From contig JAKATI010000010.1 of NCBI GenBank assembly GCA_021828045.1, positions 1-36,579 on the forward strand: a stretch of DNA of 36,579 nucleotides, written 5' to 3'. The stretch is from Pseudomonadota bacterium (GTDB lineage Bacteria; Pseudomonadota; Gammaproteobacteria; JAKAQQ01). The notes beneath the pieces were generated by a model that did no database searches, was not told where the DNA came from, and saw only the letters and a program-made list of their open reading frames with translations. Shown here in pieces: positions 2,853 to 9,313 of the stretch (position 1 is its first letter; the number at the start of each line of letters is the position of its first letter). The translations under genes and the position numbers were made by a program.

Positions 2853-2870
2853 CCAAATTTGCCGCGCAAG

Positions 2871-2890
2871 CCCTTGGCTTTAGCCATGGG
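2871..2890 (+). repeat. Left-end subterminal palindrome of the IS element
   Basis: An imperfect hairpin CCC.TGGCT-TT-AGCCA.GGG. It is nearly the same sequence as the palindrome at 4881-4901 at the other end of the element. In IS200/IS605 elements such hairpins are the single-stranded TnpA binding sites. Confidence 0.7.
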
Positions 2891-2910
2891 GTGAGCGGGA
2901 TTCGCTGGCA

Positions 2911-3317
2911 AATTCGGAATACAAAGTCAGGTACAAGTTGAGCCACAACGTGGTATTCTCTTGCAAATACAAGGTGGTATAGTGTCCAAAGTATCGCCGC
3001 GATGTATTGGTAAACGGCGCGGATACTCGGCTCAAGGCTGTTATACAGCAGGTGTGCGATGAGACGCGGAGCGAGATACTGGAAATGGAGGTGATGCCGG
3101 ACCATGTGCATCTGCTGGTCGAGGTGGACCCGCAGTTCGGCGTCCATCATCTGGTGAAACGGATCAAAGGGCGATCCTCGCGCCTGCTGCGTCAGGAATT
3201 TCGCTGGTGTCGCACCGGTTCCCGAGCCTCTGGACCAACAGTTACTTCGTTTCTGCCGTTGGCGGTGCTCCGTTGGAGATCGTCGAACAGTACATTGAGC
3301 AGCAGAAGCATGTCTAA
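2911..3317 (+). pseudogene. tnpA: tnpA remnant, Y1 (HUH) transposase, nonsense and frameshift mutations
   Basis: The frame from about 2911 reads LSHNVVFSCKYKVV, then a TAG stop at 2980-2982, then CPKYRRDVL. In intact relatives the stop position is usually Trp (VVWCPKYRR), so one TGG-to-TAG change explains it. The HUH motif follows in MPDHVHLLVEV, and the conserved VKRIKGRSSRLLRQEF is present. About position 3207 one base has been lost: the family's C-terminal part continues in another frame as FPSLWTNSYFVSAVGGAP and ends in EQYIEQQKHV with a stop at 3315-3317. The catalytic Tyr (in EQYIEQ) is thus cut off from the HUH domain. Because of the frameshift, the tnpA frame now reads straight into tnpB (open from 3007 to 4893), which looks like a fusion but is best explained by decay. 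The element is not expected to move unless TnpA is supplied in trans. Confidence 0.85.
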
Positions 3318-4893
3318 AGCGTCTGGCCCATCCTTCGTCCTGGAACTCCCGCTCGTGGTGAATCCCCACGAGAACCGGGTGTTGTCCGCGCGCTTCGAGG
3401 CGGGACGGCAACTCTATAACGCCGTGCTGGGAGAGGCTTTGCGACGGCTGGACCTCATGAAGCAGTCCAGGATTTGGGCCGCGGCACGCAAGATGCCCAA
3501 AGGCCCGCCGAAGTCCGCCGTACAGAAAGCGCGTGCCGCCGAATTTTCGCGGATTGCAAGGACGGTTGGTTTCACGGACTACGATCTGCAACGCTACGCC
3601 ACCCAATGCAAGAACGCCTGCTGGATGGGTGACCATCTGGACGCGCACGCGACGCAAAAAATCGGCACCCGGGCATTCCGGTCCGCACAACGCTATCAGT
3701 TCCGCACAGGCGGTCGTCCGCGATTCAAGCCCAGGTGGAAGGCGCTGGAATCCATGGAAGGCAAGAGCAATGCTACCGGGTTGCGCTGGCGGGAGGACCA
3801 TCTGGAATGGGGAAAGCTCCATCTCCAGGCATTCTTCGACCACAAGGACAAGTACGGCGTCCAGACCTTCGCTTTGCAATGCCCGGTGAAGTATTGCCGC
3901 CTGCTTCGGCGGACCATTCGCGGAAAAACTGTGTGGCATGTGCAGCTAATTATGGCCGGGGTTCCGAAATGGAAAGACAAAAACCCGATCCGCGCAGGCA
4001 AAACCAGCATCGACATTGGCCCGTCCACGATTGCCGTAGTCTCGGAAACCGATGCCTTTCTGGAGAAATTCTGCGCCAAGGTGCCCGACTTGCAGAAGGC
4101 AATTCGCCGGATGCAGCGGGCCATGGACCGCTCCCGGCGCGCATCCAACCCCGACAACTACAACCGAGACGGGACGATCAGGAAACCGGAGAAAGGCGAG
4201 AGGCTGCAATGGGTGTTCACCCAAGGGTACTTGCGTCTGCGCTCCCGTCTGAAGGAATTACATCGTCGGTTGGCGGCCTATCGCAGAGCAGAACACGGTC
4301 ACCTGGCGAACCGGGTCATCACCACCGGCGATACGGTGATGGCTGAGAAATTGAGTTACGAGGCTTTTCAGCGGATGTTTGGCAGAAGCATCCGCGACCG
4401 GGCTCCTGGGGGATTCATGAATCATCTGCGTCGCAAGGCTGCCAGTGCCGGTGGCGAGGTGGTGGAGTTCCCGACCCGGACCACCCAGCTCTCGCAAAGC
4501 TGTCAGTGCGGAGAGGTGGTGAAAAAGCCGTTGTCGCTACGCTGGCACGATTGCTCGTGTGGCGTACATGCGCAACGGGATTTGTATAGTGCGTATCTTG
4601 GCCTCCATGTTCAGAAAGAGTGTGGGGGCTGGAGACTGGACACCGAATCGGCCCGCGAGGGTTGGTGTGCTGCGGAATCGCTGCTGGAGAAAGCGGTGTC
4701 TGGTACCGTACAAGCTGCGAATGGCAGGCCGTTGCCTGCCAGCTTGGGCATTCGTGCCCGAGACAGAGCGGTTCTTTCTCGAAGGTGTAACGGTGCAGAG
4801 GAAGATCCCGGATGTTGTAGCCATGCTGCCGTAATGGGCATGGCGAGAGCCGGGAAGACCTCTGCATCCACCACTAAAACCCCCCGGCTTTAG
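3310..4893 (+). CDS. tnpB: TnpB, RNA-guided nuclease of an IS200/IS605 element
   Basis: A 527-residue TnpB (OrfB) whose ATG overlaps the end of the decayed tnpA, as in intact elements. TnpB proteins are RNA-guided DNA nucleases related to Cas12, and use a guide RNA made from the element's right end. The three RuvC acidic residues are present: Asp235 in SIDIGP, Glu346 in MAEKLSYE and Asp424 in HAQRDLYSAYL. The zinc-binding segment before the last one has two Cys pairs written CQC and CSC, so the first pair has one residue fewer than the commoner CxxC. Residues 1-200 are the basic N-terminal region. The last about 100 residues lie beyond the RuvC III motif and are coded by DNA that probably also encodes the guide RNA. 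The stop TAG at 4891-4893 lies inside the right-end palindrome, two bases before the GTG used for lolB. Confidence 0.88.
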   Translation: MSKASGPSFVLELPLVVNPHENRVLSARFEAGRQLYNAVLGEALRRLDLMKQSRIWAAARKMPKGPPKSAVQKARAAEFSRIARTVGFTDYDLQRYATQCKNACWMGDHLDAHATQKIGTRAFRSAQRYQFRTGGRPRFKPRWKALESMEGKSNATGLRWREDHLEWGKLHLQAFFDHKDKYGVQTFALQCPVKYCRLLRRTIRGKTVWHVQLIMAGVPKWKDKNPIRAGKTSIDIGPSTIAVVSETDAFLEKFCAKVPDLQKAIRRMQRAMDRSRRASNPDNYNRDGTIRKPEKGERLQWVFTQGYLRLRSRLKELHRRLAAYRRAEHGHLANRVITTGDTVMAEKLSYEAFQRMFGRSIRDRAPGGFMNHLRRKAASAGGEVVEFPTRTTQLSQSCQCGEVVKKPLSLRWHDCSCGVHAQRDLYSAYLGLHVQKECGGWRLDTESAREGWCAAESLLEKAVSGTVQAANGRPLPASLGIRARDRAVLSRRCNGAEEDPGCCSHAAVMGMARAGKTSASTTKTPRL

Positions 4894-4928
4894 CCGTGGG
4901 GAGATTCAGACCGGGTCGTCCCATTCCG
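4760..4928 (+). ncRNA. Predicted TnpB guide RNA (omega-RNA) with guide in lolB
   Basis: Inference from the family: TnpB-bound RNAs cover the 3' end of tnpB and the right end of the element, and finish with a guide of about 16-20 bases copied from the flanking DNA. Here the scaffold would end with the right-end palindrome (4881-4901), and the guide would be the first bases after the element, about 4909-4928, which encode the start of the LolB signal peptide. The 5' limit given is only indicative. No direct evidence of transcription can be seen. Confidence 0.4.
4881..4901 (+). repeat. Right-end subterminal palindrome of the IS element
   Basis: Hairpin CCCCCGGCT-TT-AGCCG.GGGG, matching the left-end palindrome at 2871-2890. 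It contains the tnpB stop codon (4891-4893) and the GTG (4896) from which lolB now appears to start. Confidence 0.7.
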
Positions 4929-5606: not shown

Positions 5607-6212
5607 ATGACCAAACGCGGAACAGTCCTTTTGACCGGTAGCGGTCTCCTTCTTGCGGTTGCCGTGGCCCTGGCGGCGACTCCGCTCCCGACCCGGGCGC
5701 CCTCACCCCAGGCACTCTGGAGGCAAATCCGTTTTCTCGCCCGGACGCATGCCGTCATGCCGGGAAGTCACCCGTTCCAGCCTGGTTCCCGCACGGTCGA
5801 TCTCTTTACCGTAGATCTGGCCAATGGCACCGCGCGGGCGGCGATCCTCCGGGCCGGGGGCATCCGGCGCGTCCTCCGTTATCCCGTGGGGAGCCTCCTC
5901 ATCAAGGAAAACTACGACCCGAACCGGAAACTGGATGGGGTGACCGCCATGCTCAAGCTTGCCGGCTACGATCCCACCGACCGGAACTGGGTCATGGCCG
6001 CCTATCGCCCCCAGGGTCGGGTCGTTGCCTATGGGCGGGTGGCCTCCTGCATTGGCTGTCATGCCCTGGCAAGCCGCTCCGATTTTGTCTTTGCACCTCC
6101 TCCTCGCGTGCTGCTCTCGGTTGCGGTCTGGCGGGCCTTTTTCCCGGAGCAGAAGATTTCCCCCCTCTACCGCAGGCTTCTGGCACTGCACCCCCGTGCG
6201 ATCGTGAGGTAG
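5607..6212 (+). CDS. Cytochrome P460-like exported c-type haem protein
   Basis: A 201-residue protein with a signal peptide (about residues 1-24) and one c-type haem site, CIGCH (Cys148, Cys151, His152). Around the haem site it matches the cytochrome P460 / cytochrome c'-beta family: IKENYDPNRK, then AMLKLAGYDPTDRNWVMAAY, then GRVASCIGCH followed by SDFVF. Family members act in the periplasm; some oxidise hydroxylamine through a Lys-crosslinked P460 haem and others bind NO, and the sequence does not decide which applies. The GAGGG before the ATG is a reasonable ribosome site. The gene has its own candidate promoter at the end of lolB and a strong terminator just after its stop, so it is probably a single-gene unit. 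Its position right after lolB, where ispE is often found in gammaproteobacteria, is unusual. Confidence 0.8.
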   Translation: MTKRGTVLLTGSGLLLAVAVALAATPLPTRAPSPQALWRQIRFLARTHAVMPGSHPFQPGSRTVDLFTVDLANGTARAAILRAGGIRRVLRYPVGSLLIKENYDPNRKLDGVTAMLKLAGYDPTDRNWVMAAYRPQGRVVAYGRVASCIGCHALASRSDFVFAPPPRVLLSVAVWRAFFPEQKISPLYRRLLALHPRAIVR

Positions 6213-6426: not shown

Positions 6427-6516
6427 GTCCTTTCATCACGGGGCTTGGAAACTCGGCCTGACGTCGGTCATGAAAAAAACCGGAGCGGGCCGTTCAACTT
6501 AGCTTAGGAGTCATCC

Positions 6517-9261
6517 ATGAGAAAACGCATCATGTCGGCATGGGCCGTGCCCATGGCGGTGCTCTTCGCCTTGGCGGGAGCCCCCCCGGTCCTTGCCCAA
6601 TCCCTTCCCGGCGGCAGTGTCATGCAAATGCATGGCATGGTGCCGCAAGTCGTGAAACAGGCGGTCTACCTGGGGGCGCACAGTCCCTCTGCACCGATGA
6701 CCGTGACGGTGGGCCTCAAACTGTCCCATCCCAATGCCTTGAACCGCTTTCTCGGCGAACTTCAGGATCCCGCGAGTCCGATGTACCGTCATTTCCTGAC
6801 GCCCGCCGAGTTTACCGAGAAGTACGGTCCCACGAGCGCCGAAGTCACCACCGTCACCGGCTTCCTCCAGAGCCGGGGCATCCGCGTGACCGGAGTGTCG
6901 TCGAACCGTCTCCTCATCCATACCGAGGGCACGGCCGGAACCTATGAAGCAGCCTTGGGTGTGGTGCTCGAGGACTATGCCTACCATGGGCGAACGTTCT
7001 TTGCTCCCTCTCACGCGCCGGTATTGCCCGTCTCGATTGCAGGCGACGTCGAGTCGCTGATCGGTCTTTCGGATGCGGCCGTGATGCGCCCCATGTGGAT
7101 CCGGGGGCCTGTCACTACCCTCCCGAAAAGCGAAAGCACGGCGGCGGCCACTCCCTCGGGTTACTCCCCCCAGCAGATTGCGACCGTCTATGACTGGCCA
7201 TCGATCACCAATACCGCTGACGGGTCCGGGGTGACCATTGCCAATGCCACGGCCGAGAGCACGAACCTCTCGATGAGTGACCTCGATACCTTCTGGAACC
7301 AGTACGGCTTGCCCACCCATACCGTCAATGTCATTCCCGTCGATGGCACGACGCGCTCCACCGGGGGCACGATCGAGACCACGATCGACGAGGAACGGAG
7401 CGGGGCCATGGCTCCCGGCGCCACCCTCGACGTCTACGACGCGGACAGCGCGACCGACCAGGACTTCACGGACACCTACAACACGATCGTCACCAACAAC
7501 ACCGCCCAGGTGATGACCACGAGCTGGGGAGAACCGGAGTCGGATGCCTCCTCCACGACCCTGTCGACCGATGACAGCATCTTCAAGCAGGCGGCGGCCC
7601 AGGGAATCTCGGTCTTCGCGGCGGCCGGCGACAACGGCTCCTCCGACGGGACAAGCAACCCGGATACGGCGGATTTTCCGTCCTCGGATCCGTATGTGCT
7701 GGCAGCCGGAGGGACGACCCTGACCCTGACCAGCAGCAATACGCGCTCGAGCGAGATTGCCTGGTCGAGCGGGGGAGGGGCGGAGAGTGCGGTATTCAGC
7801 GAACCCTCCTGGCAGGTCGGAACCGGCGTGCCCCAGAACGGCTACCGCAATACCTCGGACCTCGCGATGGATGCCGATCCCAACACGGGGTACTCGGTCT
7901 ACGAGGCCGGAAGCTGGAGCGTCTACGGCGGGACCAGTTTCGTGGCACCGCAGCTCGCGGGACTCTGGGCGGATGGGGTTGCGGACAATGGCGGAACCCG
8001 GCTCGGCCAGGCCAACCAGGCCGAATACGGGGTTGCCAACTCGGCCAACTACGCCAATGACTTCTACGATGTGACCTCGGGCAGCAACGGCGCCTTCAGC
8101 GCGGGCGTCGGCTGGGATCACCCGACCGGCTGGGGCACCCCCGTGGCGACGAACCTGATCGCCAACATCGTGACTCCCTCCTCGGGCGGCGGTGGCGTGG
8201 CGGCGCCCACGGCCTCGAACGGCTCGGTCACGACGACCGAGAACACGGCGGTTTCAGGGACGCTTTCGGCCACCGGGCCGAGCGGTGCGGCGCTCACCTT
8301 CGCGATCGTGGCCCAGCCCGCGAACGGGTCGGTGACCCTGACCAACAGCTCGACCGGGGCCTTCACCTACACGCCCGCCAGCGGGTTCTCGGGAACGGAT
8401 TCCTTCACCTTCAACGCCTCGGACAGCGGCGGGACCTCGAATACCGCGACCGAGACCGTGACGGTCCAGGCTCCGACCGTGGCCGCGCCGACCGCGAGCA
8501 ACGGTTCGGTGACCACCAACGAGAACACGGCGGTTTCGGGGACGCTTTCGGCCACCGGACCGAGCGGTGCGGCGCTCACCTTCGCGATCGTGGCTCAGCC
8601 CGCGAACGGGTCGGTGACCCTGACCAACAGCTCGACCGGGGCCTTCACCTACACGCCCGCTAGCGGGTTCTCGGGAACGGATTCCTTCACCTTCAACGCC
8701 TCGGACAGCGGTGGGACCTCGAATACCGCGACCGAGACCGTGACGGTGAAAGCGGCCTCCACCGGACCATGTCCCACGGGCTATGCCACCTATACCGGGA
8801 GGCTTTCCGGCAGTGGGGACTATGCCTACCAGCCCAACGACAACTACTACTACGCGAGCCGCGGAAACGAGGCTGGGCTGCTCTACGGACCCGGCGGAAC
8901 CAACTTCCAGCTCTATCTCTACCAGTGGAACCCCTGGTTCGGGTGGGTCAACGTGGCCGCCGGAACCGGTGGGGGAACGGACCAGAGCGTGAGCTACGAC
9001 GGCAGTTCCGGTTACTACGTCTGGCTCGTCTACTCGAACTACGGGGCCGGAGCCTATACCTTCTGCCTGAGCTATCCGGGCGAGACCGGTGCAGTGAGCT
9101 CCGTCCATTCGCATCCGGCTGGCATGCCAAGGACCCCTCCGCAGTCGGTCCGGAGCAGCACTCCGGCCAGTGGGGGATCCGGCTCGATGGGACTCCTCGG
9201 CCTTCTGGCCCTGGCCTCGATCCTGATCGTGCGGGGATTGCGCGAACCCCGTAAATCCTGA
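6517..9261 (+). CDS. Secreted S53 (sedolisin/pseudomonalisin-type) acid peptidase with GlyGly-CTERM-like tail
   Basis: A 914-residue exported pre-pro-enzyme. Residues 1-28 are a signal peptide. Residues about 45-190 are the activation prodomain (SPMYRHFLTPAEF). The catalytic domain is about residues 215-550 and has all S53 key residues: Glu287 and Asp291 in IETTID, the oxyanion Asp372 in AAAGDNGSSDG and Ser474 in YGGTSFVAPQLAG. The family cleaves proteins at acid pH. Two nearly identical Ig/cadherin-like domains of 94 residues follow (about 562-750), then a domain resembling the bacterial pre-peptidase C-terminal (PPC) type (about 750-850, two Cys). The C-terminus SGGSGSMGLLGLLALA plus an Arg-rich end resembles GlyGly-CTERM sorting signals, which are cut by rhombosortase. 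TAGGAG before the ATG is a good ribosome site, and a strong terminator follows. Secretion is probably by a type II system (inference). Confidence 0.92.
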   Translation: MRKRIMSAWAVPMAVLFALAGAPPVLAQSLPGGSVMQMHGMVPQVVKQAVYLGAHSPSAPMTVTVGLKLSHPNALNRFLGELQDPASPMYRHFLTPAEFTEKYGPTSAEVTTVTGFLQSRGIRVTGVSSNRLLIHTEGTAGTYEAALGVVLEDYAYHGRTFFAPSHAPVLPVSIAGDVESLIGLSDAAVMRPMWIRGPVTTLPKSESTAAATPSGYSPQQIATVYDWPSITNTADGSGVTIANATAESTNLSMSDLDTFWNQYGLPTHTVNVIPVDGTTRSTGGTIETTIDEERSGAMAPGATLDVYDADSATDQDFTDTYNTIVTNNTAQVMTTSWGEPESDASSTTLSTDDSIFKQAAAQGISVFAAAGDNGSSDGTSNPDTADFPSSDPYVLAAGGTTLTLTSSNTRSSEIAWSSGGGAESAVFSEPSWQVGTGVPQNGYRNTSDLAMDADPNTGYSVYEAGSWSVYGGTSFVAPQLAGLWADGVADNGGTRLGQANQAEYGVANSANYANDFYDVTSGSNGAFSAGVGWDHPTGWGTPVATNLIANIVTPSSGGGGVAAPTASNGSVTTTENTAVSGTLSATGPSGAALTFAIVAQPANGSVTLTNSSTGAFTYTPASGFSGTDSFTFNASDSGGTSNTATETVTVQAPTVAAPTASNGSVTTNENTAVSGTLSATGPSGAALTFAIVAQPANGSVTLTNSSTGAFTYTPASGFSGTDSFTFNASDSGGTSNTATETVTVKAASTGPCPTGYATYTGRLSGSGDYAYQPNDNYYYASRGNEAGLLYGPGGTNFQLYLYQWNPWFGWVNVAAGTGGGTDQSVSYDGSSGYYVWLVYSNYGAGAYTFCLSYPGETGAVSSVHSHPAGMPRTPPQSVRSSTPASGGSGSMGLLGLLALASILIVRGLREPRKS
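8203..8757 (+). repeat. Tandem duplication of an Ig-like domain inside the S53 peptidase
   Basis: Two units with a 282-bp period (94 codons) begin at about 8203 and 8485. Over the stretch from about 8244 to 8465 I count five base differences from the second copy, all synonymous. The copies are therefore recent or kept alike by gene conversion, with protein sequence conserved. Confidence 0.9.
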
Positions 9262-9280
9262 TCACCGCTGTTTGACACTG

Positions 9281-9313
9281 ATCGGGCAGGCAGGAAGCCT
9301 GCCCGATTTTTTT
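9281..9313 (+). terminator. Rho-independent terminator after the S53 peptidase
   Basis: A perfect 11-bp stem, ATCGGGCAGGC (9281-9291) with GCCTGCCCGAT (9297-9307), has a 5-base loop and a run of Ts to 9313. Confidence 0.95.

Follow-up and report, generated by a model that had tools for sequence, protein, structure and literature searches.

An S53 acid-type endopeptidase with a GlyGly-CTERM-like tail as a probable passenger of the rhombosortase and type II secretion route

Cleavage after Gly-Gly with subsequent lipid attachment has been shown only for the Vibrio cholerae protease VesB, where the cut exposes the second Gly, which bears glycerophosphoethanolamine (PMC6219818). VesB is composed of a signal peptide, a propeptide, a serine protease, an Ig fold, an unstructured linker and a GlyGly-CTERM segment (PMC6219818, PMC13393428), and its host genome holds a rhombosortase together with type II secretion. 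Its Ig fold and GlyGly-CTERM together send beta-lactamase to the cell surface via type II secretion (PMC13393428). GlyGly-CTERM suffixes have also been reported on "S8/S53" proteases (PF00082) of Shewanella baltica and other bacteria, where they follow a poorly conserved spacer and where homologues without the suffix exist (Haft and Varghese 2011, PMC3237569); a protease passenger as such is thus unsurprising. In kumamolisin, kumamolisin-As and sedolisin (1t1e, 1sio, 1ga1), a prodomain and a catalytic domain with a Glu-Asp-Asp-Ser set make up chains whose solved structures stop at the catalytic domain.

The protein described here has parts in common with all of these. It resembles VesB in the series of its parts and in a host genome that encodes both a rhombosortase and a type II secretion system, whereas VesB is trypsin-like, has a single Ig fold, lacks a PPC-fold domain and comes from a neutral-pH organism. 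It resembles the S8/S53 proteases in carrying a suffix behind a variable spacer; however, those match PF00082, and our protein instead has a kumamolisin prodomain and gave no PF00082 match in a Pfam search. Relative to the kumamolisins, it retains prodomain, catalytic domain and Glu-Asp-Asp-Ser set end to end but adds Ig domains, a PPC-fold domain and the tail. We propose, with a probability of roughly 0.7, that it is an S53 acid-type endopeptidase displayed at the cell surface via the rhombosortase, GlyGly-CTERM and type II secretion route. It is well supported that the protein adds a new passenger to a known pathway and does not represent a new system.

The analyzed stretch of 36,579 nucleotides, hereafter the window, represents contig 3 in a draft genome of 1.69 Mb that is about 90% complete. 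The reading frame runs from an ATG at 6517 to a stop ending at 9261 and encodes 914 residues, exactly as delimited in the first-pass annotation; like all further features of the gene given below, it lies on the plus strand. Orthologues were found in eight of the nine genomes of the family. The ATG is preceded by a ribosome binding site-like TAGGAGT (6505–6511), and 19 bases past the stop follows a hairpin with a T run that resembles an intrinsic terminator (9280–9308). With this Shine–Dalgarno-like element and the terminator-like hairpin, the gene looks monocistronic as judged from its sequence. Large antisense frames, such as 6511–8121 on the minus strand, were dismissed as shadow frames opposite coding DNA of high GC content.

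The N-terminal half of the protein is a complete S53 pre-pro-enzyme. Residues 1–27 (6517–6597) read by eye from the translation as a signal peptide, with MRKR, a hydrophobic core and a VLA end before Q. The Pro-kumamolisin activation domain PF09286 covers residues 48–185 (6658–7071) with 93.3 bits against a cut-off of 23.5, and the catalytic domain, delimited by alignment to kumamolisin (1t1e/1sio/1t1g), extends over residues 211–555 (7147–8181). Residues 46–555 align with 1t1e through the length of the catalytic domain (E=7e-46). Glu287, Asp291, Asp372 and Ser474 are intact, align with kumamolisin and are invariant in the orthologues, as are Asp518 and Gly530–Asp534 (DVTSG...GVGWD), which resemble the kumamolisin Ca site. 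Prodomain, triad, oxyanion-hole Asp and Ca site, the features by which MEROPS S53 membership was judged, are hence all present, and the earlier assignment to an acid-type S53 peptidase with prodomain holds. The mature region has a computed pI of 4.05. The closest named relatives of the host are metagenome-assembled "Proteobacteria bacterium" records, whose isolate codes we take to resemble those of acid mine drainage sets. From these isolate names and the habit of the S53 family, the uncultured host is probably an acid-loving organism of an acid habitat; the protease would be acid-active and may serve in scavenging.

Behind the catalytic domain, two Ig-like repeats of 270 nucleotides each (8196–8465 and 8478–8747) are spaced by 282 nucleotides, that is, 94 codons, and are 94% identical in DNA (93% over the 88 codons compared between species). 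Both were delimited from the DNA repeat and from Pfam, where Big_9 (PF17963) matches two stretches with 103 bits, which bears out the two near-identical 94-residue domains seen at first pass. The same copy shares only 75–80% DNA identity between the window and other species. Likewise, the pairs within two further orthologues (G008 and G006) are 97 and 96% identical and reach about 70–80% against more distant members, although these two genomes are near-identical to each other. As identity within the gene exceeds identity between species, the copies evidently homogenize each other by concerted evolution, as tandem repeats ordinarily do. A similar Ig-type domain occurs also in other proteins of the family genomes.

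The following 106 residues (750–855; 8764–9081) form a beta-sandwich of PPC fold in an AlphaFold model of the domain alone, built with four sequences (pLDDT 78). In Foldseek, this model matches 5sv5, a PPC domain from a Bacillus collagenase (TM 0.72), and, at fold level, subtilisin Tk-SP (3afg) and the collagen-binding domains of ColG and ColH. The PPC Pfam model (PF04151) was not listed among the matches at E<=0.1. The description as PPC-like thus stands for the fold but not by the Pfam model.

The C-terminal end consists of a poorly conserved linker (residues 856–884; 9082–9168) and the tail proper (residues 885–914; 9169–9258), in which SGGSGSMGL is followed by a hydrophobic stretch and an Arg-rich end. 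The tail reads ASGGSGSMGLLGLLALASILIVRGLREPRKS. It is tripartite by all measures used, with a hydropathy of 2.66, seven Gly/Ser upstream and four Lys/Arg downstream. Against TIGR03501 it scores 13.6 bits when searched alone and 11.9 bits in the genome search, below the cut-off of 15.5, and the orthologue tails range from 9.2 to 15.3 bits. We therefore use the wording GlyGly-CTERM-like: the sorting signal proposed at first pass is borne out by a tripartite tail with a conserved core but falls short in the HMM comparison. In the core GGSGxMGL, seven of nine alignment columns are invariant, compared with 5/30 in the linker (Fisher p=0.0014 across four divergent orthologues, a value that is indicative only because the sequences are related). 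The most divergent orthologues have SGSSGSG, a core without Gly-Gly, at 9.2 bits. In analogy to VesB (PMC6219818), the cut is predicted after Gly887, whose codon ends at 9177.

Tails of this kind are not confined to the S53 protein. In the same genome, a protein unrelated to S53 (C63) carries a GlyGly-CTERM tail above the cut-off (20.7 bits). Nine tails were used to build a lineage model, which retrieved three further proteins from outside this building set with the same succession of Gly/Ser, hydrophobic stretch and Arg end (C67, C101 and C44, with E-values of 2.5e-4, 1.4e-3 and 0.46). An LPXTG match on the G008/G006 tail (18.8 bits) reflects composition and was discarded, for there is no LPXTG motif. 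At locus L133 (G000:C24), a GlyGly-CTERM-like tail does not mark the end of its frame, which runs on for about 80 residues, possibly through a lost stop or as an artefact of the contig end.

The genome encodes the enzyme that such a tail would call for. A rhombosortase is located at C81:20796-21248 with 121.9–123.1 bits against the TIGR03902 cut-off of 84, and its Ser131 (GISGVLH) and His189 (AHLYG) are invariant in eight genomes. In genome searches of the roughly 90% complete draft, it was the only rhomboid detected; no GlpG was present and no exosortase was detected. The type II secretion genes gspD, E, F, G, H, J, K and L all score above their curated cut-offs. Both checks proposed with the first-pass annotation, for rhombosortase and for type II secretion, thus came out in its favor, and an ordinary membrane anchor is an unlikely reading of the tail. 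The rhombosortase gene is divergent from the adjoining gspG, the first gene of a gspG-H-(I)-J-K-L run in which (I) is a GspI-like pseudopilin read from sequence; gspD, E and F lie on a separate contig. A pseudopilin gene adjoins rhombosortase in 8/8 rhombosortase-bearing family genomes (in L050 this neighbor was read from the GspG C-terminus in a longer antisense frame), so that the divergent pair physically ties the sorting enzyme to type II secretion in a clean way. S53 orthologue and rhombosortase occur together in eight of the nine family genomes, and both are missing in the ninth, which is 65% complete.

On the proposed route, a Sec signal would carry the pre-pro-enzyme over the inner membrane, and it would be retained there by its hydrophobic C-terminal stretch together with the Arg cluster. 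Rhombosortase would then cut at the predicted Gly-Gly site, and the new C-terminus might be joined to a glycerophosphoethanolamine lipid as for VesB. The type II machine would move the folded protein across the outer membrane, and the Ig domains are possibly a separate secretion signal for this step, like the Ig fold of VesB. At low pH, the kumamolisin-type prodomain would be removed, and the tethered enzyme could degrade outside protein with the help of the PPC-fold domain.

The main rival to a tethered enzyme accepts the rhombosortase cut but has the protease then freed by hydrolysis or by self-cleavage in the linker as a soluble exoenzyme. V. cholerae VesC frees itself by proteolysis within its linker (PMC13393428), and our passenger is a protease as well, with a long linker of variable sequence. 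However, VesB is kept on the surface by the same kind of tail (PMC6219818), and the genome is without GlpG, a rhomboid by which VesB is released in the absence of RssP. We regard soluble release as distinctly less probable than surface display, but as an outcome to reckon with. A plain C-terminal anchor, which would leave the protease unprocessed in the inner membrane and facing the periplasm, would look alike with its hydrophobic stretch and Arg residues and would fit a tail score under the cut-off. Such an anchor has, however, no need of a GGSG core, and it is the Gly/Ser core and not the linker that is conserved; moreover, unrelated proteins of the genome bear the same tail, and the genome has a rhombosortase whose gene is linked to the secretion operon. 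Simple anchoring hence appears improbable. That the tail addresses a myxosortase or an exosortase was rejected as most improbable: its MYXO-CTERM score is slightly above that for GlyGly-CTERM yet under the cut-off (14.7 vs 20 bits), the invariant Cys of MYXO-CTERM (PMC11980579) has no counterpart in residues 885–914, which hold no Cys, and the only candidate sorting enzyme found is the sole rhomboid.

How unusual is a rhombosortase-type tail on an S53 enzyme? In the class, 132/370 genomes have a rhombosortase and only 9/370 have an S53 prodomain. Outside the family, we surveyed 31 S53 proteins from 18 proteobacterial genomes of a class and phylum sample, picked by phmmer; the contig scan for S53 used a single query sequence and may miss distant pairs of S53 and GlyGly-CTERM. 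None of these 31 proteins has a GlyGly-CTERM-like tail, and none equals the tail of our protein on all three tail measures. Rhombosortase exceeds its cut-off in only two of the 18 genomes (G044 and G138), so tail absence in the other 16 is expected and gives no evidence of rarity. In G044 and G138, the S53 proteins are tail-less, and the notion that every genome with rhombosortase tags its S53 protein is therefore false. A literature search found no paper naming both sedolisin and GlyGly-CTERM. The first-pass remark that S53 enzymes are rarely described with such a tail thus agrees with the sample and the papers searched, but has to be qualified by the PF00082 proteases mentioned at the outset. 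Within this scope, the pathway extends to an apparently undescribed S53 passenger, whose lineage probably comes from acid habitats.

S53 enzymes bear more than one kind of sorting tail, as two of them (L073 in G196 and L075 in G342) end in IPTL-CTERM, the signal of another sorting enzyme, above the cut-off of that model. An S53 protein from a Thermoplasmata archaeon (L039; 1428 residues, 26% identical) ends in a hydrophobic stretch and RRRK.

The closest homologue outside the family, G138:C38 (L071), has prodomain, S53 domain, Ig-like domain and PPC-like domain in the same order. In contrast to our protein, it has one Ig copy instead of two, stops directly after the PPC-like domain (end YTFCLSHP) and has neither linker nor tail. 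A tail hidden by frameshift was not found in any of the three frames, and the stop is followed by a hairpin and a T run. Since this genome does encode rhombosortase, an S53 enzyme can evidently exist without the tail. This sequence comparison fits a gain of the suffix in the family, though with a single outgroup its loss in G138 may also be the explanation. We may tentatively speculate, at somewhat less than even odds, that an uncultured, probably acid-dwelling clade added a rhombosortase tail to an already existing tail-less S53 enzyme and thereby brought to the cell surface an acid protease that had been soluble. If so, the lipid-tether route must work in a periplasm acidic enough for zymogen activation before secretion. 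The family (f1) and G138 offer a natural pair, with and without the tail, for asking what the tail does.

Upstream of the gene, a segment of about 2.06 kb (2854–4916 of the window), between a TPR gene and lolB, is missing in the same-genus locus L036, where its flanks align within about seven bases. It contains an IS200/IS605-type element with a 628-residue frame (3007–4893) that resembles a TnpA–TnpB fusion. In view of an in-frame stop upstream and the loss of frame after the HUH region, this is probably a degraded tnpA running into an intact-looking tnpB rather than a true fusion. Between lolB and the S53 gene, 5607–6212 encodes a cytochrome P460-like protein (30 bits, cut-off 27); it is also present in L036, while L034 and L037 have the lolB–S53 neighborhood without it.
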